Source: a virus
Direction: 5' to 3' (one strand)
Length of the DNA stretch: 28,871 bases
Virus record (IMG/VR): IMGVR_UViG_3300049216_000630
Location: 1 to 28,871 of that record
Position numbers and translations under genes: made by a program
Part shown: positions 1-19,971 of the stretch, piece after piece
How the letters are laid out: the number at the start of each line of letters is the position of its first letter
How positions within the stretch are numbered: position 1 is the stretch's first letter
The notes under the pieces: generated by a model
Told to the model about the DNA's origin: nothing
What the model saw: the letters and a program-made list of their open reading frames with translations, nothing else
The model's database searches: none

Positions 1-345
1 CTAGCTGCGGGCGAGGCGCCGGGCGGTGAGGACCAGGAGGCGGCGGTCCTCGGTTGAGCAGGCGCGGTAGAGCCTGACCAGAGCCAGCTCATCGCCTTGC
101 AGGGACCCGGTCTCGCCGGAGACCAGATAGCCGAGCGATGTGTTAAGGACCTTGGCGATGCGCTCCATATTATCGCGGATCTGACCGGCGCGGTCGGTTT
201 CCCATTGGGCGATCGCGGAGCGGGAGACGTTGAGCTTTGCGGCAAACTCATCCTGGGTGAGGTTGGCGGCAAGCCGGAGGGCGCGGATGCGGGCGCCGAC
301 GGATTCGGCGGGGGCGGGTTTTTTCGACATGAGGGCTTTTACCAT
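1..345 (-). CDS. XRE-family HTH transcriptional regulator (probable phage repressor)
   Basis: A 114-residue protein with a lambda-repressor-like helix-turn-helix at about residues 17-72: 'VGARIRALRLAANLTQDEFA' leads into a recognition-helix region 'NVSRSAIAQWETDR'. The rest is a short alpha-helical tail with no peptidase domain, so LexA/CI-type self-cleavage is not expected. It is divergent from the GcrA-like gene at 435 and they share an 89-bp intergenic region with a palindromic operator. That suggests an autoregulated repressor of the rightward genes, although it could also be a general XRE regulator. ATGs lie at 343-345 and 328-330 on the complementary strand. Neither has a clear ribosome site, so the start is uncertain by five codons. 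The stop codon occupies the first three bases of the window, so the gene is complete. Confidence 0.85.
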   Translation of the reverse strand: MVKALMSKKPAPAESVGARIRALRLAANLTQDEFAAKLNVSRSAIAQWETDRAGQIRDNMERIAKVLNTSLGYLVSGETGSLQGDELALVRLYRACSTEDRRLLVLTARRLARS

Positions 346-2997: not shown

Positions 2998-4359
2998 ATG
3001 ACGGCGAACCCTGGATTTCTTGGGTTTGCCGAAACCGTTTTGCGTGACACTGACCAAAGACCGGCGCGCCACCATGTAGCACTGATAAACAGGCTTGATG
3101 CGGTTCTGGCTGGGAGATGTGACCGGTTGATGGTGCAGATGCCGCCTGGCTATGCGAAATCGACCTATGGATCCATTTTGTTTCCGGCGTATTTTCTGAG
3201 CCGGTTTGCCGGCAGCCAGATTATCGCGACATCGCATACCGCATCGCTCGCGGAACATTTCGGCCGGCAGGTGCGCCGGGTGATTGGCGAATATGGCGAG
3301 ATGCTGGAGCTCTCGCTTGAGCGGGAAAGCCGGGCGGCGGGGCGGTTTTCTCTGGCCAATGGCGGCGGGTATTTTGCTGCCGGAATCCGCGGGCCGATTA
3401 CCGGCAGGCGGGCGGATTTGATATTGATCGATGATCCGATCAAATCCTGGGCGGAGGCAGAAAGCCCGGTTTACCGGGATGCGTTATATGATTGGTACCG
3501 GGCTGAGCTGTTGGCGCGGCTGAAACCGAACGGGACCATCGTGCTGTTGATGACGCGCTGGCATGAGGATGACCTGGCCGGGCGGTTGATGCAGGGGCCA
3601 GGAAGCTGGGAGAGTTTGCGGCTGCCGGCTCTGGCGGAAAGAGATGATGTTCTGGGCCGGGCGGTGGGTGAGCCGTTATGGCCGGCCTGGCAGGATGCAG
3701 CGGCGATCGCACGCCGGCGGCGCGATGTTGGCGAGCGGGCTTTTGCGGCTTTGTACCAGCAACGGCCCAAACCGCCGGAAGATGCTTTGTTCAACACCAA
3801 GAAGATTTTCGTGCTGCCGGCGCCCCCTGAGGTGAAGCGAAGTTTGCGGGCATGGGATTTGGCGGCGAGCATCGCCGGTGCCGGGCGTGACCCGGATTAT
3901 ACGGTGGGGTTGAAGCTTGGGGTGACGCCGGCGGATCATTTCGTCGTGCTGGATATCGTCAGGTTCCGGGGAACGCCCGGGCAGGTGATGGCGAAGATAA
4001 AAGATACGGCGCGGCTCGATGGGATGGCGACGGTGATTGCGTTGCCGCAGGACCCGGGGCAGGCGGGGCTGGCGCAGGTGGCGTGGTATCGCGGTGAATT
4101 GGCTGGGTTTCATCTTGAGGTCGGCGTGGAATCAGGTGCCAAGCTGACACGGGCGATGCCGGCGGCGACTTTGATGGATGATGCGCGGATTGGGCTGGTG
4201 GCAGCGCCTTGGAATGACAGTTTTGTCGCCGAGCTGTTGGCGTTTCCGGATTCGCGCAAGGATGACCAGGTGGATGCGCTCTCGCGCGCGGTGAACACGT
4301 TGGCGATGACGCGCGGGACGCCGGCGCGGCGCGAGCATGTGCATTTGATGAGCCGTTAA
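2998..4359 (+). CDS. terL: Phage terminase large subunit (ATPase/nuclease)
   Basis: A 453-residue DNA-packaging motor protein. The ATPase domain has a Walker A-type loop 'MPPGYAKST' at residues 48-56, a Walker B strand 'LILIDD' at 141-146 and a coupling-type motif 'LLMTRWHEDD' at 183-192. The C-terminal RNase H-like nuclease begins 'LRAWDLAAS' (Asp287). Further acidic candidates are Asp352 and the 'KDDQVDALSR' cluster at 421-430, typical of the end of TerL nucleases. Length is normal for the family. It opens the rightward head module directly before the portal gene. No conventional small-subunit gene is recognised next to it. Confidence 0.95.
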   Translation: MTANPGFLGFAETVLRDTDQRPARHHVALINRLDAVLAGRCDRLMVQMPPGYAKSTYGSILFPAYFLSRFAGSQIIATSHTASLAEHFGRQVRRVIGEYGEMLELSLERESRAAGRFSLANGGGYFAAGIRGPITGRRADLILIDDPIKSWAEAESPVYRDALYDWYRAELLARLKPNGTIVLLMTRWHEDDLAGRLMQGPGSWESLRLPALAERDDVLGRAVGEPLWPAWQDAAAIARRRRDVGERAFAALYQQRPKPPEDALFNTKKIFVLPAPPEVKRSLRAWDLAASIAGAGRDPDYTVGLKLGVTPADHFVVLDIVRFRGTPGQVMAKIKDTARLDGMATVIALPQDPGQAGLAQVAWYRGELAGFHLEVGVESGAKLTRAMPAATLMDDARIGLVAAPWNDSFVAELLAFPDSRKDDQVDALSRAVNTLAMTRGTPARREHVHLMSR

Positions 4360-4383: not shown

Positions 4384-5778
4384 ATGTTTGAAACGATTTG
4401 CGATACGGTGCCGGCCGATGGCGCGCTGCCGCCGCGGGTGCGGCGGTTGGATATTTTGCGGCGTGTGCTGGATGGTACGATTTATAATAACTTGCCGTAT
4501 GAATTTCATGAGGAGCGCAATGCGGCGGGTGAGTATATTCCGCTGCGCATGCGCAAGCCTTCGGTGCGGTATGGGCTGTGCCGGATTGTGGTTGAAGATT
4601 CGGTGGCGTTGCTATTCAGCAATGCGCATTTTCCGGCGGTGGACTGTGGCGATCATGCGGTTTCGCAGATCGTTGCTGACATCATCTCGGAGACAAGGCT
4701 GAATGAGGTGATGATCGATGCGGCGATCCGTGGCTCGGTTGGGTCGGTTGGGTTGCTGATGCGGATTTTGAACGGGCGGATTTTTGTTTCGGTTTTGGAG
4801 AGCTTGTATCTCACGCCGCAATGGGACCCGATGGCGCCGGATGTTCTGAAATCGGTAAAGGAGCAGTATCAGGTCCGGGGCGATGTGCTGATCGCGCAAG
4901 GCTATGAGACGATTGATCCGGCGACGATGTACTGGTTTCAGCGGGTTTGGACCGATGCTGATGAAAGCTGGTATTTGCCGTGGGCGGTGAATGATCCGCT
5001 TGCAGTGCCGGTGGCCGATGAGAGTCGCAGCACAAGACATGGGCTTGGGTTTGTGCCGATTGTGTGGATACGCAATTTGCCGGGCGGAGATTATGTTGAC
5101 GGGGCCTGCACGTTTCGTGCTGCGATCGAATCCAATATCGAGATTGATTATCAGCTGAGCCAGGCTGGGCGCGGGCTGAAATATAGCTCTGATCCGACCT
5201 TGCTGATCAAGGAGCCGGCGAGCTCGGATGGCGAGATTGTGAAAGGGGCTGGGAACGCCTTGGTCGTTTCCGAAAAGGGCGATGCGCGGTTGCTGGAGAT
5301 TGGCGGGACTGCGTCCGAGGCGGTGATTTCCTATGTGCGGACATTGCGCGAGCTTGCGATGGAATCGGTGCATGGCAACCGGACGAGTGCTGACCGGTTG
5401 ACGGCGGCGCAATCCGGCCGGGCGCTTGAGCTGATGAATCAGGGTCTGATCTGGCTTGCGGATAATTTGCGGATTTCCTACGGCGATGGCGGCATATTGC
5501 CGTTGATACGAATGATATTGAAGGCGTCCAATTTATACGCGCTGCAGGTCTTTGGCGGCGCGGTGCCGGCGCTTGACCCGGGGCAGAGATTGAGCCTGCG
5601 CTGGCCGCGCTGGTACCCGCTTTCAGCCGATGACAGGTTGAAGGAGGCGCAGGCGATTTCGCTGCTGACCAATGCCGGGCAGATCTCCCGCGAGACGGCG
5701 GTGAAGGCCCTGAGTGCGGCGCATGATGTGAGTGATATTCGGGCGGAACTTGATGCAATCAACGAGGATCGTGAATGA
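4384..5778 (+). CDS. Phage portal protein
   Basis: A 464-residue protein located between terminase and scaffold, as expected for the dodecameric portal through which DNA enters the capsid. Its composition fits an SPP1 gp6-like/DUF935-type portal: an early domain 'LPYEFHEERNAAGEY', a middle domain ending 'GLGFVPIVWIRN', and a long helical stem/clip segment 'LMNQGLIWLADNLRISYG'. A C-terminal segment 'LSADDRLKEAQAISLLTNAG' followed by 'ISRETAVKAL' is a recurring tail-end pattern of portals. The ATG follows AAAGAG. The stop overlaps the next start in an ATGA arrangement, indicating translational coupling. Confidence 0.9.
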   Translation: MFETICDTVPADGALPPRVRRLDILRRVLDGTIYNNLPYEFHEERNAAGEYIPLRMRKPSVRYGLCRIVVEDSVALLFSNAHFPAVDCGDHAVSQIVADIISETRLNEVMIDAAIRGSVGSVGLLMRILNGRIFVSVLESLYLTPQWDPMAPDVLKSVKEQYQVRGDVLIAQGYETIDPATMYWFQRVWTDADESWYLPWAVNDPLAVPVADESRSTRHGLGFVPIVWIRNLPGGDYVDGACTFRAAIESNIEIDYQLSQAGRGLKYSSDPTLLIKEPASSDGEIVKGAGNALVVSEKGDARLLEIGGTASEAVISYVRTLRELAMESVHGNRTSADRLTAAQSGRALELMNQGLIWLADNLRISYGDGGILPLIRMILKASNLYALQVFGGAVPALDPGQRLSLRWPRWYPLSADDRLKEAQAISLLTNAGQISRETAVKALSAAHDVSDIRAELDAINEDRE

Positions 5779-6216: not shown

Positions 6217-6261
6217 TGCTGATGCACGACCATGTCACAACTTAGATGAAGGATTTTGCCG

Positions 6262-7584
6262 ATGGGCATTCAGAATTTCCCGGCCGCTTTGCAGCCGATC
6301 ATTCAACAGGGTTTTCTTGAGCGTGAGTTTGAAATGTCGCTCAAATCTCGGCTTGGCTACCGGCTCATTGCCGACCGGGAAGATTTTTCAACCGGGATTG
6401 GTGAGACTTTGACCAAGACACGCGCCGGGTTGAAGCCGAGCGTGACGGTGCCGCTGGTGGCATCCAGCAACACCAATTTGGACAATGGGTTGACCTCGAC
6501 GAATTGGGGGGTCGAGCAATATACGATTACGTTGAATTTTTATGCGGCGACCCAGGATTTGAATATGGTCACCAGCCGCGTTGGGATTGCGACGCAGTTC
6601 TTGCAGAATGCCGCGACCAATGGTGAGCAGGCGGCGCGTAGCCTGGATGAGCTGGCGCGCAATGCGCTGTTCGCGCCATATTTCGGCGGCAATACGCGGG
6701 TGATTGCCACGCTGAGCTCCGCCGGGCCGAGTGTTGAGGTTGATGATGTGCGTGGGTTTCAGACGGTTTTTGTGAATGGCGTGCAGCAGAATGTTTCCAG
6801 CACCTATCCGCTGACGGTGACGGTGGGGTTGAACACGTATAATGTTGTGGGTGTGACGCCGGATGCGACGAATATCTCGACCGCGCCTGGTGGGGTTTCC
6901 GGTGCGCTGCTGTTTTCAGGTAATGTGACGGTCGCTGATGCGACCGCCACCAATCCGGTGAAGGCGGCGACGGGAAGCTCGATCGTGCGGCCGGCGAGCC
7001 GCGGGACGACGGCGGCATTGCAGGCGACCGATACGTTGACGATGGGCAATTTGCTGGATGCGGTGGCGTTGTTGCGGCGGAACGCTGTGCCGTTGGTTGA
7101 CGGGGTTTATAATTGCTATCTCGATCCGGTTTCGGCGCGGCAGCTTTTTGCGGATTCGGATTTCAAGCAATTATTCCAGGGGGCGACATCTTCCAATCCG
7201 GTATTCCGGCAAGGGATGGTGAGTGATTTTCTGGGCTTGCGGTTTATCACCACGACCGAAGCCTATGTGCAGAACCACCCGAGTATTGGGGGGCTTTATG
7301 TCAGGCGGCCGATTGTGTGCGGACAGGGCGCACTGATCGAGGGCGATTTTGCCGGCATGGCGGCGGATGATGTGGCGCCGAAGGATAGTTTGGTGAACAT
7401 CATCGATAATGTGGCGATGGTGACGCGCGAGCCGATTGACCGGTTGCAGCAGATCATCGCGCAAAGCTGGTACTGGATTGGCGGGTTTTGTGCGCCCTCC
7501 GACACCACGACCACGCCGACCACGGTGCCGACGGCAACGAAAGCGAATTACAAGCGCGCTGTGATGATCGAGCATATTGGTTAA
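6262..7584 (+). CDS. Major capsid protein (HK97-like fold)
   Basis: A 440-residue protein directly after the scaffold, with the size and composition of an HK97-fold capsid subunit. The N-terminal arm includes 'FLEREFEMSLKSRLGYRLIA'. A long helix 'SRVGIATQFLQNAATNGEQA' near residue 120 matches the spine helix. The end includes 'DSLVNIIDNVAMVTREPIDR'. A beta-rich, Thr/Val/Gly-rich segment at about residues 160-235 looks like an insertion domain on the capsid surface. ATG 6262 is preferred over the TTG at 6256 because GAAGGA at 6248-6253 is eight bases from the ATG and only two from the TTG. Confidence 0.9.
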   Translation: MGIQNFPAALQPIIQQGFLEREFEMSLKSRLGYRLIADREDFSTGIGETLTKTRAGLKPSVTVPLVASSNTNLDNGLTSTNWGVEQYTITLNFYAATQDLNMVTSRVGIATQFLQNAATNGEQAARSLDELARNALFAPYFGGNTRVIATLSSAGPSVEVDDVRGFQTVFVNGVQQNVSSTYPLTVTVGLNTYNVVGVTPDATNISTAPGGVSGALLFSGNVTVADATATNPVKAATGSSIVRPASRGTTAALQATDTLTMGNLLDAVALLRRNAVPLVDGVYNCYLDPVSARQLFADSDFKQLFQGATSSNPVFRQGMVSDFLGLRFITTTEAYVQNHPSIGGLYVRRPIVCGQGALIEGDFAGMAADDVAPKDSLVNIIDNVAMVTREPIDRLQQIIAQSWYWIGGFCAPSDTTTTPTTVPTATKANYKRAVMIEHIG

Positions 7585-9928: not shown

Positions 9929-11482
9929 ATGCCGATTTATGCACAAGGGGCGCTGAATACGACGGCGCTGATCGTACCGGATTTATATGTGCAGATTGTG
10001 CCGCCGCAGAGCCTGCTGCTGAATGGCGTGCCGACAGATGTTCTTGGCATTGTCGGCACCGCGAGCTGGGGGCCGGTGGGTGAGCCGGTGATCATCGGCG
10101 CGATGAGCGAATATGCTGCGAGCTTTGGTGCGGTGATGGCGCGCAAATATGATATGGGCACACAAGTTGCGACCGCGGTGCAGCAGGGCGCGGCGAATTT
10201 CCGCTGCGTGCGGGTGACCGATGGGACGGATAGTGCGGCATCGCTCTCACTGTTCGGGGCAGCGAATTTTACCGCTATTTATACCGGCAGCCAGGGCAAT
10301 GCGCTGACATTGAGTTTGGCGTCTGGCTCGGCTGCGAACTCATGGCGGTTCACGGTCTCGATGCCGGGGCTGAGCCCGGAGGTGTTCGATAATATTCCGG
10401 GCTCGGGGGCGGTGTTCTGGAATAATCTTGTCAATGCCGTGAACCATGGCAATGGGGTTTTGCGCGGCCCTTCAAATCTGGTGGTCGCGAGCCTGCTTTC
10501 GGCGAGTGCGGCGCCGGTTGCGGGGACGTATCCGTTTTCCGCCGGCACGCCGGGCACTGATGGCGCGGCGACGATCAACGTGGCGAAACTTGTGGGCGCG
10601 GACGTGTTGCCGCGTACGGGCATGTATGCGCTGCGCGGCCAGGGTTGTTCCATTGCGTTGCTGGCCGATGCCGATGATGCCACGCAGTGGAGCGTGCAGG
10701 TGGCGTTTGGTTTGAGTGAGTCGGTGTATATGATCTTTACCGGGCCGGCGGGTGATACGATCACCAATGCGGTGGCGGTGAAGGCGACTGCCGGGATTGA
10801 TACCTATGCGGCCAAGATGATGTTTGGTGATTGGGTGTATTGGTATGACCAGGCAAATGCGCTGACCCGGCTGGTATCGCCGCAGGGATTTGTGGCGGGG
10901 CGGCTTGCGAATTTATCGCCCGAACAGTCATCGTTGAACAAGCCGCTATATGGGGTGACCGGCACGCAGAAATCCGGCCAGCCAGGGCAGGGCACCGCAA
11001 CGACTTATGCGACGGCGGATTTATCGGCATTGCTCTCGGCCGGAATTGATGTGATTGCCAATCCGCAGCCGGGTGGCAATTACTGGGGCGTGCGGGGCGG
11101 GCATAATGCGTCCTCCAATGCCGCGATCAATGGTGATAATTATACGCGGCTGACGAATTACATTGCACGGACATTATCGGCCGGCATGGGTGCTTATGTG
11201 GGGCAGCTGGTGAATGCGACTTTGTTTCAGAATATTCGTTCGACCCTGCTGGCATTTTTGAATGGGCTGCTGAGCCAGGGGATGCTGGGCAGCACTGATG
11301 GATCTCTGCCCTTTGCGGTTGTTTGTGATACCACGAATAATCCCGCGAGCCGAACTGGTTTGGGTTATGTGCAGGCGGATTGCCAGGTGCAGTATCAGGC
11401 GATCAACGAGAAATTCATTGTCAATGTGCAAGGCGGGCAGACCGTTCAGGTAAGCCGGCAGAGCACTGCGGTGAGCGGTTAA
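9929..11482 (+). CDS. Contractile tail sheath protein
   Basis: A 517-residue sheath subunit, which makes this a contractile-tail phage. The N-terminus 'YVQIVPPQSLLLNGVPTDVL' followed by 'GIVGTASWGPVGEPVII' is the usual sheath opening. The body includes 'QGAANFRCVRVTDGTD', and 'GTDGAATINVAKLVGADVLP' recalls the sheath pattern 'GTDG'. The C-terminal domain ends 'YVQADCQVQYQAINEKFIVN' and 'VQGGQTVQV', the conserved handshake-strand region. GGGAGG at 9917-9922 is a strong ribosome site. Length is typical. It is followed 13 bases later by the tube gene. Confidence 0.93.
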   Translation: MPIYAQGALNTTALIVPDLYVQIVPPQSLLLNGVPTDVLGIVGTASWGPVGEPVIIGAMSEYAASFGAVMARKYDMGTQVATAVQQGAANFRCVRVTDGTDSAASLSLFGAANFTAIYTGSQGNALTLSLASGSAANSWRFTVSMPGLSPEVFDNIPGSGAVFWNNLVNAVNHGNGVLRGPSNLVVASLLSASAAPVAGTYPFSAGTPGTDGAATINVAKLVGADVLPRTGMYALRGQGCSIALLADADDATQWSVQVAFGLSESVYMIFTGPAGDTITNAVAVKATAGIDTYAAKMMFGDWVYWYDQANALTRLVSPQGFVAGRLANLSPEQSSLNKPLYGVTGTQKSGQPGQGTATTYATADLSALLSAGIDVIANPQPGGNYWGVRGGHNASSNAAINGDNYTRLTNYIARTLSAGMGAYVGQLVNATLFQNIRSTLLAFLNGLLSQGMLGSTDGSLPFAVVCDTTNNPASRTGLGYVQADCQVQYQAINEKFIVNVQGGQTVQVSRQSTAVSG

Positions 11483-11495
11483 GGGAGAGCAGGAT

Positions 11496-11924
11496 ATGCC
11501 GTATAATACGTTTTCTGTTGGCAATGACTGCCAGATTGTGGTGATGGGGCCGTTCGGGCGGGTTGATCTGGCGCATGTGACGGGGTTTGAGGCCGCACAG
11601 GTGACGCAGGCCGTGCGGGTGGACCGGATGGATGGTGTGCAGCTGGGGGCGGAGTTGCCGAAAGGCTGGCAGGGCATGTTTACATTGGACCGCGGGTCAT
11701 CGGCGGCGGATGATTTTATTGCTGCGATCGAGGCGGCTTATCTGGCGGGGCAATCGATTGGTGCCGGTACTTTGTATCAGTATGTGAATGAGCCTGATGG
11801 TTCAACCTCGACTTATCAGTTCAGCGGCGCGGTGTTCAAGCTGACATCCGCCGGCGCGTACCGGGGGGATGCGCCAGTGGCGCAAAGGTTGCAGTTTTAT
11901 GCCTCGAGCCGGGTGCGGGTTTGA
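11496..11924 (+). CDS. Tail tube protein
   Basis: A 142-residue protein directly after the sheath, the standard position for the tube subunit that forms the inner channel of a contractile tail. It is beta-rich: 'FSVGNDCQIVVMGPFGRVDL', a loop, then 'GWQGMFTLDRGSSAADDFIA' with the single helix expected of tube proteins. The last strands are 'YQFSGAVFKLTSAGAYRGD'. AAGGGAG at 11481-11487 lies eight bases before the ATG. Its stop overlaps the next start by one base (TGATG), coupling tube and chaperone translation. Confidence 0.85.
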   Translation: MPYNTFSVGNDCQIVVMGPFGRVDLAHVTGFEAAQVTQAVRVDRMDGVQLGAELPKGWQGMFTLDRGSSAADDFIAAIEAAYLAGQSIGAGTLYQYVNEPDGSTSTYQFSGAVFKLTSAGAYRGDAPVAQRLQFYASSRVRV

Positions 11925-12226
11925 TGGAGCGGGTGATTACGGATAAGGCCGGGCGAAAGTTGACGCTGCGGAAGTTCGGCGTGTTGGAGACGTTGCGGCT
12001 GTTCAAGGCGCTCGGGCCGGAGCTTTCAGCGAATAATGCCTATATAGGCGTGGCGAGCTTCGCCGGTTCCGTTGCTATGATTGATGATGTGCCGATGCCG
12101 TTGCCAGCAAACGAATTGGCCGTTGAAGCGCTGATTGAGCGGCTGGGCGATGACGGCATGGAAGCGGTGATGGCGGCCGACAAGCCGGCATCGATGAAGG
12201 ACGTGGTTGCAGACGCGGGAAACTGA
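11924..12226 (+). CDS. Tail assembly chaperone, short (G-like) form
   Basis: A 100-residue protein at the site of the tail assembly chaperone, after the tube. It starts at ATG 11924. The sequence 'DKAGRKLTLRKFGVLETLRL' followed by 'FKALGPE' is a typical chaperone opening, where a beta hairpin leads into a helix. The remainder is helical and acidic ('LAVEALIERLGDDGMEAVMA'). The final sense codons are GCG GGA AAC before TGA, and they form a -1 slippery heptamer. The short form should be the major product, with a minor extended form made by frameshifting. Such chaperones bind the tape measure protein, yet no full-length tape measure gene follows. Confidence 0.8.
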   Translation: MERVITDKAGRKLTLRKFGVLETLRLFKALGPELSANNAYIGVASFAGSVAMIDDVPMPLPANELAVEALIERLGDDGMEAVMAADKPASMKDVVADAGN

Positions 12227-12239
12227 GCCGGCACCCGGC
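12217..12239 (+). promoter_or_regulatory. Programmed -1 ribosomal frameshift site with stimulatory hairpin
   Basis: GGGAAAC at 12217-12223 is read G GGA AAC in the chaperone frame, an exact X XXY YYZ heptamer. Lambda G/GT uses GGGAAAG. Slippage places GGG and AAA in the -1 frame. The zero-frame TGA follows at once (12224-12226). From 12227, GCCGG, a CAC loop and CCGGC (12235-12239) form a five-pair GC-only hairpin. The -1 frame is closed upstream by TGA at 12151 and stays open to 12396. Confidence 0.85.
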
Positions 12240-12396
12240 ACTGACGGATTGTTTGTATCTTGTTAGATGCGGGGTGCCTTATGATGTGGCGTTTGGGCTG
12301 GATGAGGCGGAGCGGATGGCTTATGTTGTTGTACTGGGGCGCTTAAGTGGTTTGCAGTTTGATTGGCGGCAGCTACGGTGGGATGAATCGCTTTAA
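12223..12396 (+). CDS. -1 frame extension of tail assembly chaperone (T-like part of GT fusion)
   Basis: After slippage at 12217-12223 translation would continue from CTG at 12223 for 57 codons to TAA at 12394-12396, giving a fusion of about 157 residues with the 100-residue chaperone. The extension reads as real protein: 'HPALTDCLYLVRCGVPYDVA', then 'FGLDEAERMAYVVVLGRLSG' and a Trp/Arg-rich end 'FDWRQLRWDESL'. It lacks its own ribosome site and a good early start codon, which fits expression only by frameshifting. By analogy with lambda gpGT the extension would recruit tube subunits to the tape measure-chaperone complex. Confidence 0.8.
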   Translation: MSRHPALTDCLYLVRCGVPYDVAFGLDEAERMAYVVVLGRLSGLQFDWRQLRWDESL

Positions 12397-12430
12397 TCCT
12401 TATTGAACGAAGTCCGGCTAAACGTTTGAT

Positions 12431-13393
12431 ATGAGAAAAATTCTGTTCTTAGGCTTGGCGTTTTTATGTCCCGTTTTTTTGGCAGCCGTCATTGCGTTTT
12501 ATCGTTATGACGGCATGTATGGCATTAACACCGTTCTGCATGGCGGAGCGACACGGTGGCTTACGATGCGGGGTGATGATACGTTTCTGCCGATGGAAAT
12601 TCAGTGGGCGCTTGCCGGCCAGCCGCCCGAAGCGACTTCCGGGCCGCTTGCCTGGCGGCTGATTGAGCCGGGGCTTGACGTTTCGGAGCTGCCCGTGCTT
12701 GCGCGCGGGCGCCAAGTTGATGATATATTGCTGACGCGGATTGACCCTGCGAGGTTTCGATTTGTATTGCAGAACAGGGCCTCGGGGGATCGCGACCTCG
12801 CCGGCTGGATGAGCGCATCAAAGCCAGTTGTTCTGATCAATGGTAGTTATTTTTCACCCGGCGGGCAGCCGGATACGCCATTTTTAAGCGAAGGCCGGCT
12901 GATCTCGGCGCGGAATGACCCGGCGGCGCAGGGTGCGTTTGTCGCCGGAGCGGCTCCGGCGGTGGTGGAGGCTCTAAGGGATGGCGATTGGCGCGACGCA
13001 TTCCACGGGGCGGGGAATGCGCTGGCGACGTACCCGTTGTTGATTGGGCCATATGGGTATAATAGAGCCATTCAAGAAAGCCATTGGGTGGCTAACCGCA
13101 GTTTTGTGGGTGAGGATGGTAATGGCCGGATTATTCTGGGTACAACGAAAGATGCGTTCTTCTCGCTCGCCCGGTTTGCAGAATTTCTTCATGCGGCGCC
13201 CCTGGGGTTGAGGATGGCGTTGAACCTGGATGGCGGCCCGGTGGCCTGCCAGGCAGTAGATACGCCTGAATATCAACGGCGTTTTTGCGGGGAGTGGGAG
13301 ATACGCGACCACAGCGGCTGGTTCAAGGTATTAAAGATGCCACCGGGAAGCTGGATACAGTTGCCGGTTGTTTTGTTGGCGTATCGAAAGTAA
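12431..13393 (+). CDS. Membrane-anchored phosphodiester glycosidase (NAGPA-like) domain protein
   Basis: A 320-residue protein. Residues 4-23 are one hydrophobic helix after 'MRK', so it is an uncleaved anchor or signal peptide with the domain outside the cytoplasm. The domain carries motifs of the phosphodiester glycosidase (NAGPA) family in order: 'VVLINGSYFSPGG' at 133-145, 'ATYPLLIG' at 199-206, 'NRSFVG' at 222-227 and 'MALNLDGGP' at 262-270. The family removes sugars from phosphodiester linkages; here that could act on an envelope polymer, which is inference. Base composition matches the phage neighbours, unlike the next genes. It sits where the tape measure gene is expected and has no clear ribosome site. 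Confidence 0.75.
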   Translation: MRKILFLGLAFLCPVFLAAVIAFYRYDGMYGINTVLHGGATRWLTMRGDDTFLPMEIQWALAGQPPEATSGPLAWRLIEPGLDVSELPVLARGRQVDDILLTRIDPARFRFVLQNRASGDRDLAGWMSASKPVVLINGSYFSPGGQPDTPFLSEGRLISARNDPAAQGAFVAGAAPAVVEALRDGDWRDAFHGAGNALATYPLLIGPYGYNRAIQESHWVANRSFVGEDGNGRIILGTTKDAFFSLARFAEFLHAAPLGLRMALNLDGGPVACQAVDTPEYQRRFCGEWEIRDHSGWFKVLKMPPGSWIQLPVVLLAYRK

Positions 13394-13415
13394 TCTTTAT
13401 AAGTGTAAATGATAT

Positions 13416-13827
13416 ATGATGATAGCGCGAGATGTCACGGAGTTTTTAGCTTTGTGGCCTATTTTGGCTATTCCAGAATTTTTTATCTTGCTTACTTTGT
13501 CAAAGGTTTTTCGCGCAGGTGGATCAAGTAAATCCAAACTATTTCTTTGCTCACTGCCAGGTATTTTGATTGCTTTTTCGTGGTATAGTTCTGTAGGAAT
13601 TTTTTTTGATCCCGGCCATTTGCTGTGGACTTTAGTCATTGCTCCGACAAATATATTTTCACCTGTCGCATTTCTATATTCGATTATATCCGAGTTTTTT
13701 ATTCAAAAAATATGATTTTGCAGCGCGGGGGAAAAAGATCGAAATTTTACTCGTGATATTTTTGTTGTTTCTTTATTCATACGAACAACTGATTGTGATC
13801 CTATCGGCTGGCGATGCCGCAGAGTGA
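13416..13827 (+). pseudogene. Frameshifted four-helix membrane protein (cassette copy 1)
   Basis: Two overlapping frames together make a full-length paralogue of the membrane protein at 14055. Frame one (13416-13715) gives 'WPILAIPEFFILLTL' and 'PTNIFSPVAFLYSI', matching 'WPILCVPEGIILYTI' and 'PTNILAPLALIYSI' in copy 2. It then hits TGA at 13713. The other frame supplies the missing last helix, 'ILLVIFLLFLYSYEQL', matching 'MLLLIIMLVLYLYDQV'. Removing one base from the A6 run at 13705-13710, or from T6 at 13695-13700, restores the reading frame. It may be a decayed gene, an assembly error or slippage-dependent expression. The local sequence is AT-rich: 19 of 60 bases are G/C at 13441-13500. 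Confidence 0.7.
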
Positions 13828-13849
13828 TACATAAAAAGGTAAGGTGAGC

Positions 13850-14053
13850 ATGTCTAATCTTGATCCTCCACCATACGATAAAAATGCATTAGATTATATT
13901 TCAAAAAATGTGCGGGTCATTAAAAGCATAAGTGCTCAACTTAGTGTTTCATCTACTGCGGTAGCAGCGAGCATTTCTCGTGAAATCATACGAGCCGACG
14001 GTGAAATAGTCGCTGGAGCCTTGCTAATTTATCTCACCTTGATTGGCTTATGA
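13850..14053 (+). pseudogene. Truncated N-terminal stub of the cassette effector (copy 1)
   Basis: A 67-residue ORF with AAGG five bases before ATG 13850. Residues 12-51 match the N-terminus of the 249-residue protein at 14482: 'STAVAASISREIIRADG' here against 'PEAVAGSMAREISRADG' there. 'NALDYISKNV' also parallels 'DALKYVSENV'. The similarity stops right after 'RADG', and a short hydrophobic tail of about 16 residues ends the ORF. The remaining 190 residues of the copy are missing. It could be a pure relic, or a retained small protein in which the shared N-terminal domain still works alone. Confidence 0.65.
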
Positions 14054-14054
14054 A

Positions 14055-14456
14055 ATGATATTTCATCTCGAATCGCCGACCGATTTTGTGGCCTCATGGC
14101 CAATCCTTTGTGTTCCTGAAGGTATTATTCTGTATACTATTACAAAGTATTTCGGCTTTGAACCATCTCGTATACGGATGCTTCTATGCATTTCCTTGCC
14201 CGGATTGGTTTTAACAATTTTATGGGTGGCTCTCTTTAGCCAAGAATTTGACGAATTTTTTTTGGCCAGTATTGTTTTTATTCCGACTAACATACTGGCG
14301 CCGTTAGCTTTGATTTATTCGATCGCCCGTCCCTTCGTTGTTTCAGATGGTCATTCGCGCGCCTGTTCGAACTTCACAATGTTATTACTTATAATAATGC
14401 TTGTCTTATATTTATATGATCAAGTCACTGTATTCGCGGATCCTGGTGACTCTTAA
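14055..14456 (+). CDS. Four-helix membrane protein, cassette copy 2 (immunity- or holin-like)
   Basis: A 133-residue protein, nearly all hydrophobic. Probable membrane helices lie at about residues 11-32, 39-60, 66-91 and 106-126, with short polar links ('EPSRIRM', 'VVSDGHSRACSN') and an acidic end 'ADPGDS'. The start is taken as ATG 14055, two bases after the stub's stop. There is no ribosome site, so it may depend on coupling to the stub. I do not recognise a named family. Pairing with the soluble protein at 14482, and its retention in two copies, suggest an immunity protein for an envelope-directed toxin. A holin next to a lysin is the main alternative. Confidence 0.65.
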   Translation: MIFHLESPTDFVASWPILCVPEGIILYTITKYFGFEPSRIRMLLCISLPGLVLTILWVALFSQEFDEFFLASIVFIPTNILAPLALIYSIARPFVVSDGHSRACSNFTMLLLIIMLVLYLYDQVTVFADPGDS

Positions 14457-14481
14457 CTGAGCGTTACTGTGAGGTCAAAAG

Positions 14482-15231
14482 ATGTCGGCCTATCCCCCTC
14501 AGGCTTACCATTCTAATCTAACGCCCCAAGACTATAATGAAGATGCGTTAAAATACGTGAGCGAAAATGTGACATCGATCAACGAGACCGCTAACCGCCT
14601 CGGAGTATCGCCTGAGGCTGTAGCTGGGAGCATGGCGCGGGAGATTTCACGAGCAGATGGCGCAGCCCCGTATAGTGGAATAGGTCACAGTCTTGCTGTT
14701 TGGAAAGCCCTGAATTTTACTTCCCAACAAGAATTTGCCCGAAATTACGCAGGAGACCTTAAACAAATCAATAAAGATAAAGGTGCATTTGATGGGGATA
14801 TAGGTTTCATAAAAAGAGTTTTGCATCCAACGCTTTCCGACATCGGACTTGGCGCGATTAAAGTATTAACCGCATTTCAGATCATCAAACAATATCAAGA
14901 TACTCCGCAAGGCAAAGCCCTTGGTTTGGATGAGTGTAAACTGACCGATTTGAAGACCATCGTTAATAATCTGAATGATCGTAGTCACTCACTCAGCATT
15001 AAGATTGCCGGGCTTGTCGTCTTGAATGGCCAAAAGTTTTTCGGCGACGAATCCATCGATGGCATTCCTTGGCCAAAGCTTACGAAGGAACAGCAGGATA
15101 CGGCGCTGACCGCTTACTATACGACTGGCGAGCACGCAATTAGCGTGGATATGGAGCAAAATGAATTTCGTCCTTATACGCCGGGACCGGAAAGGTGGCC
15201 AGGTTGGGCCGTGGATTTTGTTTGGTCATAA
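14482..15231 (+). CDS. Effector-like cytosolic protein, possibly lysozyme-like (cassette copy 2)
   Basis: A 249-residue protein with GAGG at 14471-14474, seven bases before the ATG, and no signal peptide. Residues 41-60 read 'GVSPEAVAGSMAREISRADG', resembling the helix of lytic transglycosylases and lysozymes that carries the catalytic Glu ('G(V/I)xPxLxAAIxxxES'); Glu54 would be that residue. 'HPTLSDIGLGAIKVLTAFQI' at 115-134 could be the matching substrate-groove segment ('D.G.G...'). A later part, 'YYTTGEHAISVDM' and on, is unrecognised. The muramidase reading is a hypothesis from short motifs. The start of this protein is duplicated in the stub at 13850. The gene is AT-rich and foreign-looking. 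Confidence 0.55.
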   Translation: MSAYPPQAYHSNLTPQDYNEDALKYVSENVTSINETANRLGVSPEAVAGSMAREISRADGAAPYSGIGHSLAVWKALNFTSQQEFARNYAGDLKQINKDKGAFDGDIGFIKRVLHPTLSDIGLGAIKVLTAFQIIKQYQDTPQGKALGLDECKLTDLKTIVNNLNDRSHSLSIKIAGLVVLNGQKFFGDESIDGIPWPKLTKEQQDTALTAYYTTGEHAISVDMEQNEFRPYTPGPERWPGWAVDFVWS

Positions 15232-15922
15232 TTATTCAAACCTGAATGCGATATTGACGAAAGGCAGATCGTTTCGGCTTTCGGTTGCCCCGGTGCCGCG
15301 GCCAAAGCCGCAGCAACAGGCGTCATCCAAGTACATGAAACATGCCGAAGCTGGAGATATTCTTGCTCCGGTGGGAAGAATTTTAGATGCGTTGCCGGCG
15401 GACCGTCACTCTGTTGTTCATACAATGGCGAACGCCACAAATGCGCCGGCCACAAAATATATTGCCAGACCCGGAGGGCTGCCGCATGCGTTAGCGCAAG
15501 GCGCAAATTATGCCTTTCATTCTGCGGTGACGCAGCGCGGCAGCAAACATGTGGCAGTTGCGCAAGGGCGGCCGAGTGATTTGAATCCCGAGTTTATCCG
15601 GGCACAAAAAAATGTATTGCCGGCGCTGTACATGTCACTAACAAGCCAGCGCGAGGTGCTACCTTCGATAGCGCCCGCGGCCGGTCGGCCAGGGGTCATG
15701 TCAACGCAACAATTAACGCGCCATCATTCAATGGCGATTTCGTCAAGTGATTGCCAGGATTCAATAGCAGCGCATTCTATGGCAAAAAAAATCGGCAAGC
15801 AAAATTTGCGCTTGGCAATGAGTGATTTGCTGAACGCTCAGGCGCGTTTGCCGCCTTCGGGGCCGACCGCGTTTGATCCGCGGCTGACGCCGGCCTGGGC
15901 GGGGCTGAAACTGCCGCAATAG
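15161..15922 (+). CDS. Unrecognised protein, possible C-terminal remnant of a tape measure protein
   Basis: A 253-residue ORF that overlaps the end of the 14482 gene by 71 bases in another frame. GGAG at 15153-15156 lies four bases before ATG 15161; TTG 15254 is an alternative. It is Ala-, Pro-, Gln- and Ser-rich and low in structure-forming segments ('PVPRPKPQQQASSKYMKHAE'). The end, 'ARLPPSGPTAFDPRLTPAWA' followed by 'GLKLPQ', resembles tape measure C-termini in related prophages as I recall them. A gpU-like gene follows, which is the usual neighbour of a tape measure. Base composition returns toward phage-like GC from about 15280. A remnant joined to the inserted block is likely but not proven. 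Confidence 0.45.
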   Translation: MNFVLIRRDRKGGQVGPWILFGHNYSNLNAILTKGRSFRLSVAPVPRPKPQQQASSKYMKHAEAGDILAPVGRILDALPADRHSVVHTMANATNAPATKYIARPGGLPHALAQGANYAFHSAVTQRGSKHVAVAQGRPSDLNPEFIRAQKNVLPALYMSLTSQREVLPSIAPAAGRPGVMSTQQLTRHHSMAISSSDCQDSIAAHSMAKKIGKQNLRLAMSDLLNAQARLPPSGPTAFDPRLTPAWAGLKLPQ

Positions 15923-16079
15923 AGGGTGTGCGGCGACGCCTGAAGCGATTGCGTGAGTGGTGGCGCAAGCGGATCACCGATCTGGCAGTCTGAGTTTTTG
16001 CCCAACCGAACGAAGCACCACTGTTCCCGGGCTGACAGGCGAGTGGGCGGAGAAAAAATACCGCAATAAGTGAGGCTGC

Positions 16080-16772
16080 ATGAGCATGATTTATGTGACC
16101 CTGGGGGATGTGACCTTCCAGGATTTCGAGGTGCCTGAGCGGATACGCTTTGGCGGCGAGCAGCGTACCGCCGTGCATGAATTGATCGGCGGTGGCCGGG
16201 TGGTGGATGTGCTGGGCGGGCAGCCGGCGGAGATTGGCTTTCACGGAATTTTCTCCGGTACTGATGCGGCAGCGCGTGCGCAATCACTTGATTCTGCCCG
16301 TGCCGCTGGGGCTGTTCTTGCGCTTGGCTGGGATGGGTTTTTTTACCATGTGGTGATTGCGGACTTTGAGGCGGCTTATGAAAAGCCGTTCTGGATTCCA
16401 TTTCGTATCACCTGCCTTGCGGTCTCTGATAGTGCAATCGCGGCGGCGGCGATTGTCATTCCGGTGGGCAGCCTGATCAGCTCTGATCTGGCGGTGGTGG
16501 CGCAATGGGCTGGTGCTGCGGGGCTTTGCACGCAGAATTTTAATGCCGCGAATGCTGTGGCGGCACAGGCTGGGTGCGATATGGCTGTGAATGTGGCAGG
16601 TGCAAACTTAATCCGAAATATGGACATCGTTAATAATCCGACGACGCCGGATGCCGCGGTTACAGCACTTGCCGGGGTGAGCCAGAATAGCGGAAGGCTG
16701 GCGGCGGCTTGCTATGCCGGCGGATATCTGGCGCGGGCGGTTCAGAACATCGGGCTGGGAGATCTGGCATGA
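16080..16772 (+). CDS. gpU-like tail/baseplate protein
   Basis: A 230-residue protein. The first 120 residues resemble P2 gpU/T4 gp53-type tail proteins. They have 'ERIRFGGEQRTAVHELIGGG' and 'VDVLGGQPAEIGFHGIFSG', then a helix and a strand pair 'FWIPFRITCLAV'. P2 gpU likewise has 'rigk..a.qflG.g.....l.G...pe..gg'. The C-terminal half is Ala/Gly/Asn-rich and helical, a family-specific extension. It would join the tube end to the baseplate hub. The ATG overlaps the end of its leader at 'GAGGCTGC' and the stop overlaps the LysM gene in an ATGA. It resumes the phage operon after the cargo block. Confidence 0.65.
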   Translation: MSMIYVTLGDVTFQDFEVPERIRFGGEQRTAVHELIGGGRVVDVLGGQPAEIGFHGIFSGTDAAARAQSLDSARAAGAVLALGWDGFFYHVVIADFEAAYEKPFWIPFRITCLAVSDSAIAAAAIVIPVGSLISSDLAVVAQWAGAAGLCTQNFNAANAVAAQAGCDMAVNVAGANLIRNMDIVNNPTTPDAAVTALAGVSQNSGRLAAACYAGGYLARAVQNIGLGDLA

Positions 16773-16948
16773 CGATCACCGTGATTGGCGGCAATTTGTT
16801 CAAGCTGGCAGCGCAGTATTTGAATGACGCGACGCAATGGGTGCGGATTGCACAGGCGAATGGGTTGTCTGATCCGGTGTTGAGCGGGATGGTGGTGTTG
16901 AAGATTCCGCCGGTTGACCCGACGGCAGGGGGCGGGATTGCCGGTTGA
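16769..16948 (+). CDS. LysM-like tail protein X
   Basis: A 59-residue protein with the LysM-type core of phage tail protein gpX: 'GGNLFKLAAQYLNDATQWVR' followed by 'IAQANGLSDPVLSGMVVLKI' and 'PP'. The pattern of Leu-Ala-Tyr, 'W..IA..N', then a 'D....G..L.IP' strand is diagnostic. In baseplates this small domain sits between hub and tube and stabilises the junction. The start codon overlaps the gpU-like stop by four bases. It lies next to the hub gene, which begins before its own stop. The short length is normal for gpX. Confidence 0.85.
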   Translation: MTITVIGGNLFKLAAQYLNDATQWVRIAQANGLSDPVLSGMVVLKIPPVDPTAGGGIAG

Positions 16949-17918
16949 GCTGCCGACGCTGCAGATCACGGTCGGGGATATGCCGGTGCGCGGCGCTGTC
17001 TCGGTCCGGATTGAGCAGGCGGCGTTCTTCAGGGCCGGCCGCTTTGCGGTGAGCCTGGCCATGGGTGCGCCCCCACTTTGGGGTATTGCTGATTACGCGC
17101 GATTGAGTTTGCAAACGCTGACGATCTCGGTCGCGACCTCTGGATTTGGGTTTCTCACACTGATCACCGGCCAGATTGATAATGTGGTGATTGATTGCGC
17201 AGCGCAGCGCGCGACGCTGAGCGGGCGGGATTTATCGGCACGTCTGATCGATACTGAAACGGCCGAAAGCTTTCTCAACCAGACCGCGAGCGATGTGGCC
17301 ATCACCATTGCCGGCCGGCATGGATTGGTTGCGGATGTGGTGCCGACGACGGCGGTGATTGGGCAGTATTATGAGCTGGACCATGCACGCAGTGCCCTGA
17401 TCACGCATTCGCGGATCGGCAATGAATGGGACTTGCTGGTTTGGCTGGCGCAGGCGGAGAATTATTTTGTCTCGGTGAGCGGGATCAATTTGTATTTTGG
17501 GCCGATGCCGGTGATATCGCCTGTGGCGATTGATGTCGGTGATTGCTTGGATGTCTCGATCGATATCGCATTGGCGTTGCCCAATTGCGCGGCGGTGAAA
17601 TCATGGAATAGCCGGGATAAAATGGCGGTCACTCAGGTGGCCGGCACTGGTTCGAGTGTGACGACATTGGTCAAACCCAATCTGAGCAGTGCGCAGGCGC
17701 TTGATCTGGCGACGAGCCATCTGGCGGCATTGGCGCAGCATGTGACGATTTTGGACTTGAAACTTCCGGGCGAATTAAACCTTGCACCGGGCGGGATGAT
17801 TTATCTTACCGGGACCGGATCGGCACTCGACCAGGTCTACGTGATCGAGGAGATCGTTCGTGAGATCGATGTTTCGCACGGATTTGTCGAAACAATTCGC
17901 GGTTATGCGGCGAGCTGA
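16938..17918 (+). CDS. Baseplate hub protein, gpD-like (late control D family)
   Basis: About 326 residues from TTG 16938, which gives 'MPVELPTLQITVGDMPVRGA'. An upstream TTG (16914) and an internal ATG (16980) are alternatives. The 16938 start keeps the family's N-terminal strand. 'GFLTLITGQIDNVVIDCAAQ', 'ATLSGRDLSARLIDTET' and 'HSRIGNEWDLLVWLAQAENY' match the gpD pattern in which a shell domain is followed by 'GRD....L.D' and a ring helix. gpD trimers form the hub below the tube and carry the spike. It follows the LysM gene with an 11-base overlap and precedes the spike gene, the usual order. Confidence 0.85.
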   Translation: MPVELPTLQITVGDMPVRGAVSVRIEQAAFFRAGRFAVSLAMGAPPLWGIADYARLSLQTLTISVATSGFGFLTLITGQIDNVVIDCAAQRATLSGRDLSARLIDTETAESFLNQTASDVAITIAGRHGLVADVVPTTAVIGQYYELDHARSALITHSRIGNEWDLLVWLAQAENYFVSVSGINLYFGPMPVISPVAIDVGDCLDVSIDIALALPNCAAVKSWNSRDKMAVTQVAGTGSSVTTLVKPNLSSAQALDLATSHLAALAQHVTILDLKLPGELNLAPGGMIYLTGTGSALDQVYVIEEIVREIDVSHGFVETIRGYAAS

Positions 17919-17930
17919 CGGAGCAAAAGG

Positions 17931-18476
17931 GTGGAGCGATTTTGGAATCTGGTGAAGGCCCGTGCCGGTGGCATGGATGGGCTGGCCGGTGTGGCGCGGT
18001 TTGGCTTGGTCTCTAGTTTCGATCCGAATAATTATGCCGCGCGTGTTTTGATTCAGCCGGAGAATGTTCTCTCCGGCTGGCTGCCGGTCCTTACTGCCTG
18101 GGCGGGTAATGGCTGGGGGTTTGCAACGCCGTTGACGCCGGGTGACCAGGTGCTGGTGATCTCGCAGGAAGCGCAATCCGAGCATGGGGTGATTATCGGC
18201 TCGGTCTGGTCGGCGGTTGATAAGCCGGTTCCGGCGCCAAGTGGCGAGCTATGGTTACAGCATCAATCTGGCAGTTTTGTGAAATTGCATAATGACGGGA
18301 CGATTGCGATGCAGGCGAGCCAGGTGACGATTACCGGGAATTTGATTGTGAGCGGTGATATTTCCGATCAGAACGCCAGCCACGGGACGGTGGCAAATCT
18401 CCGGAACGCGCATGATACGCATACCCATGCTGATCCGCAGGGCGGCACTACCGGAACAGCCTCGGTGATTGTGTGA
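17931..18476 (+). CDS. Baseplate spike protein, gpV-like
   Basis: A 181-residue protein from GTG 17931, with GGAG at 17920-17923. An OB-fold-like N-terminal domain ('ARFGLVSSFDPNNYAARVLI', 'GWGFATPLTPGDQVLVIS', 'GVIIGSVWS') is followed by beta-helix-type strands: 'GSFVKLHNDGTIAMQASQVT' leads into 'ITGNLIVSGDI'. Residues 161-172, 'HDTHTHADPQGG', hold a His-x-His of the type that binds an iron ion at the tip of P2 gpV. It is the membrane-piercing spike of the contractile tail. The stop overlaps the gpW start. Confidence 0.88.
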   Translation: MERFWNLVKARAGGMDGLAGVARFGLVSSFDPNNYAARVLIQPENVLSGWLPVLTAWAGNGWGFATPLTPGDQVLVISQEAQSEHGVIIGSVWSAVDKPVPAPSGELWLQHQSGSFVKLHNDGTIAMQASQVTITGNLIVSGDISDQNASHGTVANLRNAHDTHTHADPQGGTTGTASVIV

Positions 18477-18846: not shown

Positions 18847-19971
18847 ATGCAGCTCTCATTGCAGAATTTTACCACGCTGGTTGAAGGCATGGCGGCCTCG
18901 GTGCAGGGGGCAGCCGTTGCGCTGCTGGATCTGACAGTCGGCTCGGTATTGCGGGCGATCCTTGAAGCAAATGCATCGGTGGCTTTGTGGCTGCAATGGT
19001 TGATTGTGCAGGTGCTGGCGACCACGCGGCTGGCGACAAGCACGGGAGCGGATTGCGATAGTTTCGGCGCGGATTTTGGCTTTACCCGTTTGCCCGCAGT
19101 GGCGGCGACAGGGCAGGTGACATTCGCGCGGTTCACGCCGAGTATTGCGGCGTTCATTCCGGTTGGCACGGTTGTGTCAGTGCCTGGTGGCAGCGCAAGT
19201 TTTCTCGTGGTGGCAGATCCGGCAAATGCCGCTTATAATGTTGCAAGCTCCGGATTCACATTGGCGGCAGGTGTGGCGAGCCTGAACGTGACGGTGGCGG
19301 CGCGCAGTGGTGGAACGGCGGCGAATGTTCAATCAGGCGCGATCTCGGTGATCGGCACCGCGCTGCCTGGCATTGATACCGTAACGAATGCCGCGGCGTT
19401 CACCGGCGGGATTGACCCGGAAAGCGATGCGGCGTTTCGCGCCCGGTTCGGCAATTATCTGGGGAGTCTTTCGAAGGCGACGGATACTGCCATCGGTGCG
19501 GCGATTGCCGCCATTCAGCAGGGTCTGAGTTTCACGATTTCGGAAAATATCAATCAGGCCGGTGCGGTGCAGGCTGGGCATTTTGTCGTCACGGTGGATG
19601 ATGGTTCTGGCGCGCCACCGGCGGGTTTACTGAGCAGCGTGCAGGCAGCGGTGAATGCCGTGCGCCCGGTGGGATCGAGCTTTGCAGTGCAGGGGCCAGC
19701 GGTGAGTTTGGCAAATATCTCGCTTACCCTCACCACTGCGAGTGGCACGTCCCACCCGGTGGCGGTGGCGGCTGTGGCGTCGGCCATCGAAACCTATATT
19801 GCGGGGCTGGGGATTGGGCATAATCTGAATTATACCCGGCTGGCGCAGGAAGCTTATGCGGCCTCGGCCGATGTAGTGAATGTCTCGAATATTCTGCTGA
19901 ATGGCGCGGTGTCTGATCTGGTGCCGCCGCTCTTCGGCGTGATCCGCGCCGGCACCGTGACGGTGGGCTGA
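18847..19971 (+). CDS. Baseplate wedge protein, gpJ-like
   Basis: A 374-residue Baseplate_J family protein. It opens 'LQNFTTLVEGMAASVQGAAV' and has 'GTVVSVPGGSASFLVV' strands. It carries the family landmark at about residues 187-201, 'GGIDPESDAAFRARF', and a downstream domain 'GHFVVTVDDGSGAPPAGLLS'. The last 70 residues contain 'ETYIAGLGIGHNLNYTRLAQ', the usual C-terminal strand-helix arrangement. gpJ forms the wedge arms around the hub. AGGA at 18837-18840 is the ribosome site. The gene lies two bases ahead of the gpI gene. Confidence 0.9.
   Translation: MQLSLQNFTTLVEGMAASVQGAAVALLDLTVGSVLRAILEANASVALWLQWLIVQVLATTRLATSTGADCDSFGADFGFTRLPAVAATGQVTFARFTPSIAAFIPVGTVVSVPGGSASFLVVADPANAAYNVASSGFTLAAGVASLNVTVAARSGGTAANVQSGAISVIGTALPGIDTVTNAAAFTGGIDPESDAAFRARFGNYLGSLSKATDTAIGAAIAAIQQGLSFTISENINQAGAVQAGHFVVTVDDGSGAPPAGLLSSVQAAVNAVRPVGSSFAVQGPAVSLANISLTLTTASGTSHPVAVAAVASAIETYIAGLGIGHNLNYTRLAQEAYAASADVVNVSNILLNGAVSDLVPPLFGVIRAGTVTVG

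Follow-up and report, generated by a model that had tools for sequence, protein, structure and literature searches.

A tape measure locus probably turned into an effector slot in a contractile phage-like element of Acidocella and its relatives

The tape measure protein (TMP) locus of a contractile phage-like element was found to hold toxin-like cassettes instead of a TMP gene. We analysed the whole of IMG/VR record IMGVR_UViG_3300049216_000630 (28,871 bases), called the window below, in which this locus, the slot, spans positions 12397-16079. In the explanation that we consider probable, the window belongs to a domesticated element of the Acidocella branch of the Acetobacteraceae, in which the TMP locus has become an effector slot and the gene upstream of the effector provides immunity. 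The homology of a short tail with TMPs, the structure of the cassettes, their exchange, the occupation of one site in Acidocella and purifying selection in elements with an empty slot are read directly from the sequences, and the window itself presumably lies in such a chromosome. Loci that were compared are numbered with L and host genomes that were searched with G; coordinates refer to the plus strand of the window unless stated otherwise.

In phages, prophages and plasmid prophages whose sheath is related, the position of the slot is occupied by proteins of 633-807 residues; the two of these that were scanned against PHROGs both matched PHROG 28 (tail length tape measure protein), with E values of 1e-6 and 3e-5. 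The comparison of gene order with relatives, which a first-pass annotation of the window had called for, thus revealed a long TMP at the slot in these phages and prophages and none in the group of the window. What this group has is a tail. The tails of the slot proteins of the near clade (loci with a tube identity of at least 73.5%) matched the short slot proteins of the more distant clade in profile comparisons (E = 4.9e-10), and the latter matched true TMPs over the last 45 columns (E = 4e-9); compared directly, near-clade tails and true TMPs gave an E value of 2.7e-5. Because the profiles link the tail to TMPs, the annotation was right in calling the end of the product of 15161-15922 tape-measure-like. 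The homology covers the last 42-45 columns and is confined, in the window's group, to the C-terminal ~43 residues, represented in the window by the last 41 residues (15797-15919). By these sequence comparisons, the slot tail is derived from the C-terminus of a TMP. Slot proteins of the distant clade resemble a TMP at both their start and their end, with a middle part rich in Pro and Ala. When 13 genomes were searched with a TMP profile, it matched the slot proteins of G007 and G009 at their two ends and, in G006 and G008, the C-terminal end; the body was never matched. The phiKX1, Rhodovastum, Aquitalea and Pantoea plasmid prophage TMPs share the locus, the sheath family and the homologous C-terminal ~43 residues with the present elements. 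Their N-terminus is homologous to that of the distant clade, whereas the near clade lacks the TMP body, and their 633-807 residues contrast with the 0 to about 360 residues held by near-clade slots without a toxin.

Within 12397-16079 of the window, no open reading frame (ORF) exceeded 320 residues, in agreement with the earlier statement that no long TMP ORF follows the chaperone gene. The first gene of the slot encodes a phosphodiester glycosidase with a hydrophobic start (12431-13393; NAGPA, PF09992, E = 8e-13), already recognised as glycosidase-like, and the region after it is indeed AT-rich (38-44% G+C at 13501-15000, against about 60% over most of the window). Of the duplicated cassette that had been described here, the duplication stood; the repeated unit turned out to be a membrane protein gene plus a toxin-like ORF, the toxin of the first copy being a stub and its membrane protein gene being frame-broken. 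This first immunity-like membrane gene, of a type that we call class A (13416-13827), was delimited by comparison with the intact 137-residue protein of L003 and consists of an ORF at 13416-13715 and a remainder in another frame; the break is either a lesion or a sequencing error. The stub (13844-14053; 76% identical to the first part of the L003 effector over 67 residues) is the beginning of another copy of the toxin gene that lies further downstream. The second immunity-like membrane gene of class A (14043-14456), identified by comparison with relatives, is related to the first. It is followed by the class A toxin-like domain (14482-15231), which is 53% identical to that of L003 and, from weak matches to GH23-type folds, possibly lytic-transglycosylase-like, and by a basic linker with the TMP-derived tail (15161-15922), the frame changing near 15190. 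The 253-residue ORF 15161-15922 had been taken for a gene of its own; it does have the TMP-like end, but it is not a standalone gene, since in relatives it is fused in a single reading frame with the product of 14482-15231, as one ORF of 470 residues in L003 and 496 residues in L030. The frame change in the window is again either a true lesion or a sequencing error. Misassembly of the window, which had been raised as a possible refutation, is unlikely because L003 and L030, from two different IMG/VR datasets, share its slot order of NAGPA, membrane protein, toxin and tail.

Relatives were collected with the tail sheath (9929-11482; PHROG 23, E = 8e-51) as a query, which left 80 viral loci of 293, plus 76 genome loci, most of them with titles that name Acidocella, other Acetobacteraceae or Rhodospirillales. 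The tail assembly chaperone was present in 145 of 157 loci (window copy counted), and the gap was 87 bases or less in 23 of the 113 loci having both the chaperone and a homologue of the gene at 16080. A second scan with the tube protein brought the total to 216 loci, or 162 after dropping those with equal tube starts, with 128 closed slots and 34 open ones, which were not counted. After omission of L183, a copy of L182, the near clade comprised 75 closed slots and 22 toxin rows; L179, a contig without chaperone, is outside these rows, L218 and L220 (90% shared words) were both retained, and an element from an isolate may figure in the counts as its IMG/VR copy. The 75 slots were empty in 25 cases, held nothing but a protein with the TMP tail at its end in 29, and a domain of class A, B or C in 18; the other 3 were L196, with a possible fourth cassette, and L038 and L097, with variant tails. 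No long ORF of the kind expected for a TMP lies between the chaperone and baseplate genes in the near clade, the longest toxin-bearing ORF having 512 residues, about half of which are toxin-like domain. In the distant clade (n = 52), the gap was 720-6212 bases and the slot proteins, among those displayed, mostly had 245-485 residues, L143 (767) and L144 (690) resembling full TMPs. Four distant loci (L129, L139, L130 and L116) have slots of 3-6 kb in which a short TMP-end protein is followed by small, related ORFs and by proteins with DUF4129 or DUF4279; this may be a further array of effectors or immunity genes.

Three unrelated N-terminal domain classes (A, B and C), plus the possible fourth of L196, were found on the one conserved tail. 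Among the distinct complete effector ORFs, 17 of 18 end in the TMP tail (3 of class A, 8 of class B and 6 of class C), the exception being L203, and L213 has just a remnant with a tail. An immunity-like gene of the same class lies upstream in 22 of 22 rows (3 A, 12 B, 7 C); the partner genes used as queries came from 10 of these rows, the other 12 being independent, and the partner gene of L204 is a fragment. The partner is a small membrane protein in class A and a larger one in class B, while that of class C begins with a stretch that, read by eye, is signal-peptide-like. NAGPA occurs in 5 loci and is counted as part of the class A cassette because it is confined to loci with class A parts; it might act as an additional protection factor or alter the envelope. 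L189 has a double cassette, with a tail on each, and L180 an orphan class A partner behind its class C cassette. In a tree of 88 loci, L177 (A) groups with L186 and L004 (B) with a support of 0.99, and L207 (C) with L017 (B) as well as L211 (B) with L180 (C) with a support of 1.0. Since close neighbours carry different classes, cassettes have been exchanged between elements. This lends good support to the suggestion that the locus had become a cargo slot: unrelated N-terminal domains swap on a conserved TMP-derived tail, each with an immunity-like gene. In polymorphic toxin systems and effector-immunity pairs of the type VI secretion system kind, toxin modules are swapped on a constant part next to a cognate partner, and orphan partners and toxin stubs occur. 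Judged by sequence, the slot shows the same features (variable domains on a constant region, an adjacent partner of the same class, orphan copies and stubs), the differences being the constant part, a C-terminal phage TMP tail, and the presumed carrier, a phage-like particle. In L196, the possible fourth cassette (L196:7375-9419) consists of a lipoprotein-like 145-residue ORF, a 212-residue ORF, and a linker with TMP tail in a different frame. The slot of L034 contains, after its class C cassette, a pectate-lyase-like ORF (PF12708; L034:13444-14562).

According to the mechanism that we propose, the TMP gene would have been trimmed to its C-terminal end, which would dock to the baseplate hub, and exchangeable effector domains would have been placed before this end, in the window a class A, probably peptidoglycan-cleaving, domain. 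The effector would be held in the tail lumen via the TMP tail, contraction would inject it and thereby damage the cell wall of the target, and the upstream gene would encode the cognate immunity protein that protects the producer.

Several observations weigh against this explanation. Nothing above cut-off was found for classes A and B in Pfam, NCBIfam, PADLOC, PHROGs or PDB sequence searches. The AlphaFold model of the class A domain, based on a shallow alignment of 4 sequences, was weak (predicted local distance difference test score, pLDDT, 57; predicted template modelling score, pTM, 0.57) and had no significant Foldseek match (best E 1.1). Toxin cassettes were seen solely in virus-database contigs and in none of the 22 closed near-clade slots of named genomes (11 with a tail, 10 empty, 1 other). 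In the 397 genomes sampled from the family, class B was not found (in a search without positive control), class A was found once and only partially, and class C-like transglycosylases occurred outside the slot in 58. Among these 58 genomes, 52 had given no sheath match; in 3 of the other 6 (G075, G119 and G212) the class C-like gene and the sheath are on different contigs; and the class C partner was absent from the 2.5-3.5 kb context of all 8 class C-like loci that were fetched. The window's own effector is frame-broken, that of L004 is broken within the domain, and that of L203, a near copy of L204, ends before the tail. Finally, 25 near-clade elements carry no cargo at all.

As to the activities of the domains, comparison of the class A model by a second aligner gave a list in which 15 of 16 entries were MltE, SltB or goose-type lysozyme, the best Z score (7.6) being within the tool's warning range. 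Residue E47 is invariant in 4 of 4 class A sequences and may be catalytic. The class A domain may thus cleave peptidoglycan; in a Devosia relative, it precedes a Hint match that is below the Pfam cut-off. The class C domain is likely a transglycosylase, because a Nitrogeniibacter relative (37% identity over 170 residues) carries a Pfam SLT domain above cut-off. The class B model (pLDDT 59) had no significant fold match. Relatives of class B form part of large proteins or of open frames that lie on plasmids of Pantoea, Rahnella, Paraburkholderia and Rhizobium. BLAST did not detect a class B partner upstream of those in Pantoea and Rahnella. A profile search related the Rahnella upstream protein to the class B partner (E = 1e-6), and the Pantoea one was doubtful (E = 0.007; unrelated control, E = 0.14). 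The pairing of toxin and partner in Rahnella, outside a phage context, supports a toxin-immunity interpretation.

The SLT domain of the class C relative and the weak resemblance of the class A model to MltE and goose-type lysozyme would also suit ordinary muralytic domains, borne by a TMP and aiding passage through the wall of the next host, with upstream genes that guard against premature lysis or are unrelated morons; the accessible part of one study reports lytic transglycosylases in the TMPs of enterococcal phages (PMC10194240). We consider this unlikely. Class B is not recognisably muralytic, and an infection enzyme would not usually come with a same-class partner (22 of 22 rows here), leave orphans and stubs, or be swapped between sister elements. 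Furthermore, the domain is missing altogether from 25 elements, which indicates that it is dispensable for the particle itself.

The two frame breaks and the stub in the window, the broken genes of L004 and L203, the many empty slots and a transposase-like ORF in L099 could be taken as signs of a decaying prophage, which would have lost its TMP and whose slot would gather functionless debris. We find this quite improbable, as the element, empty ones included, is under purifying selection. In five pairs of empty elements, the ratio of nonsynonymous to synonymous substitution rates (dN/dS) ranged from 0.035 to 0.66, and was below 0.25 in 48 of 53 gene comparisons, the highest values being those of gpU (0.66) and gpD (0.59) in the pair L086/L102. 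The slippery heptamer GGGAAAC, a -1 frameshift site directly 5' of the TGA stop of the chaperone gene (12217-12223), was retained in 76 of the 78 loci that were checked, among them 24 of the 25 with an empty slot. Decay also fits poorly with 17 intact effector ORFs with a tail and with a site conserved across Acidocella species. Empty slots occupy at least two places on the 88-locus tree.

It had also been proposed that the prophage borrows a tape measure, for which we found no support. We searched 13 draft host genomes with profile A7, built from five true TMPs, and with PF10145. Neither matched in 6 of these drafts (G002, G003, G004, G010, G011 and G012), three of them with an empty slot, A7 being blind to the tail alone, as indicated by the fact that it missed the short slot proteins of G004, G005, G010 and G011. 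PF10145 was above cut-off on other contigs in G001 and G013 and below it in G006, while A7 picked up a TMP on a different contig of G005, and second, weak sites in G007 and G009. TMP families are diverse, and PF10145 was positive in just 7 of 14 control genomes. Relocation of the TMP within empty elements was rejected, as the gene map of L086 leaves no room for it, and so were a 3-kb insert in L093 and L153 and an insert in L099, which are not TMP-like, the latter reading transposase-like from its translation. The insert of L093 and L153 lies between the portal gene and the homologue of the window's gene at 5775, and one of its ORFs reads, by eye, as SGNH-type hydrolase-like.

Five Acidocella genomes share one chromosomal site for the element. 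The XRE-type regulator at the border of the window (1-345, minus strand; PF01381) is also found beside the element in Acidocella genomes, followed on the host side by a family 2 glycosyltransferase, a histidine phosphatase and, in 4 of 5 genomes, a Kup transporter (Pfam names from one genome); downstream, the Acidocella elements have conserved fibre genes and a GH108 endolysin. This glycosyltransferase was not found in the 19-kb flanks from Acidiphilium (G006) and Acidisphaera (G007). Ten of 11 related virus records carry the border regulator at 85-96% identity, and in 9 of the 11 tested it was outermost, 3 bases from the record end as in the window, which suggests that the records are trimmed chromosomal pieces; L031 extends past the regulator into the same glycosyltransferase (72% identity). 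Within the Acidocella group, where its identities are 85-97% (against 48-55% to Acidisphaera), the regulator is at least as conserved as virion genes, a hint that it has a role in the host or controls the element tightly. In 5 of 5 Acidocella genomes, no PF00589 integrase was found within 100 kb of the element on its contig (serine recombinases were not searched for), and such integrases do occur elsewhere in all five. The sheath was present as a single copy in 13 of 13 genomes, which had been picked for having one, and a sheath match of any strength was obtained in 173 of the 397 family genomes. The element is thus domesticated, at least in Acidocella, and no ordinary prophage.

Nor is it a headless tailocin, since it has genes for a terminase large subunit (2998-4359; PF17289, PF03237; PHROG 38), a portal protein (4384-5778; PHROG 145, E = 2e-14) and a major head protein (6256-7584; PHROG 1357, E = 7e-36; no Pfam match). 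These genes, which are under selection, the single fixed location, the regulator and endolysin, and the lack of an integrase within 100 kb are traits of a gene transfer agent or PBSX-like particle, in which the slot protein would be a short TMP of a minimal tail and the added domains accessory. Peat-moss contigs matching Acetobacteraceae regions without excision or replication modules, described in the accessible part of PMC12142844, point in the same direction. Such a particle is compatible with the effector slot that we favour; as a rival to it, it leaves the empty slots and the toxin-immunity pairing unexplained, and we regard it as very improbable.

The chaperone gene has a zero-frame part (11921-12226; weak match to PHROG 508, tail assembly chaperone, E = 0.075) and a -1 frame extension (12220-12396), recognised by its translation and conservation. 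The usual client of a tail assembly chaperone is the TMP. Here the chaperone outlives this client, and either serves tube assembly directly or has had its client replaced by another protein. Going further, and more tentatively, we suggest that Acidocella and its relatives keep a head-bearing contractile particle without any TMP, with a conserved frameshifted chaperone, and that in sister lineages the vacated lumen docks interchangeable antibacterial toxins fused to the TMP tail. If such TMP-free assembly is real, tail length would be fixed by something else.

TMP-related effectors have been described before, namely Tme in a contractile injection system of Streptomyces davawensis (PMC11126660) and Sle1 in S. 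lividans and other actinobacteria (PMC13277306), one Sle1-type relative having an adjacent immunity gene. To judge from the accessible parts of these papers, the likeness lies in a TMP-related effector that is encoded inside a tail-like cluster and has a variable functional domain. In Tme and Sle1, a TMP-like part is followed by a C-terminal functional domain, whereas the slot proteins keep the C-terminus of the TMP and have the toxin-like domain in front of it, and no Pfam match to their DUF4157-type domain was found among the slot proteins scanned. As far as those parts go, the present cluster differs also in retaining terminase, portal and head genes, in having Gram-negative acidophiles as hosts and in the many members without a slot protein. 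The Acetobacteraceae genome regions of the peat moss study (PMC12142844), which have gpV/W/J domains but lack modules for excision or replication, are by their description plausibly the same elements; in its main text, as far as accessible, the term "tape measure" does not occur and no toxin slot is described. Among the papers listed by searches of one open-access collection, none dealt with toxin domains at the TMP C-terminus in Acetobacteraceae. TMP-related effectors as such are known; the kept TMP C-terminus with an N-terminal toxin-like domain, the retained head module and the frequent complete loss set the present elements apart.

The remaining genes of the window complete the picture of its operons, which comprise the regulator, small helix-turn-helix-like and DUF6362 genes, terminase, portal, major head protein, sheath, tube, chaperone, baseplate genes and fibres. 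The tail parts occur in the order given by the first-pass annotation: sheath; tube (11496-11924, assigned by position and conservation; PHROG 12993, a family without assigned function); frameshifting chaperone; the conserved tail gene after the slot, called gpU (16080-16772; PHROG 21362, E = 1e-39, also without assigned function); an ORF at the gpX position; a tail or baseplate-hub-like protein (16914-17918; PHROG 52, E = 1e-17, and PHROG 177, E = 8e-4); the gpV-like baseplate protein (17931-18476; PF04717); a baseplate wedge protein (from 18473; PHROG 120); the gpJ-like baseplate protein (18847-19971; PF04865); and a further tail-operon gene at 19974. The 16080 ORF and an overlapping ORF at 16709 (together 16080-16948) may be one split gene, because they match opposite ends of PHROG 21362 (positions 5-142 and 262-317 of 321). 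After the fibres, an open-ended ORF of 546 residues (27234-28871) had no Pfam match.

Taken in sequence, the slots suggest a stepwise route from a full TMP, via its two ends joined by a Pro/Ala-rich middle, to the tail alone, and from there to a tail with a toxin or to nothing. Empty elements are found in culturable strains (Acidocella facilis, A. aromatica and KAb 2-4), which makes TMP-free assembly and length control of a contractile tail testable. Should delivery of the toxins prove real, the ~43-residue tail would serve contractile particles as a short loading tag.

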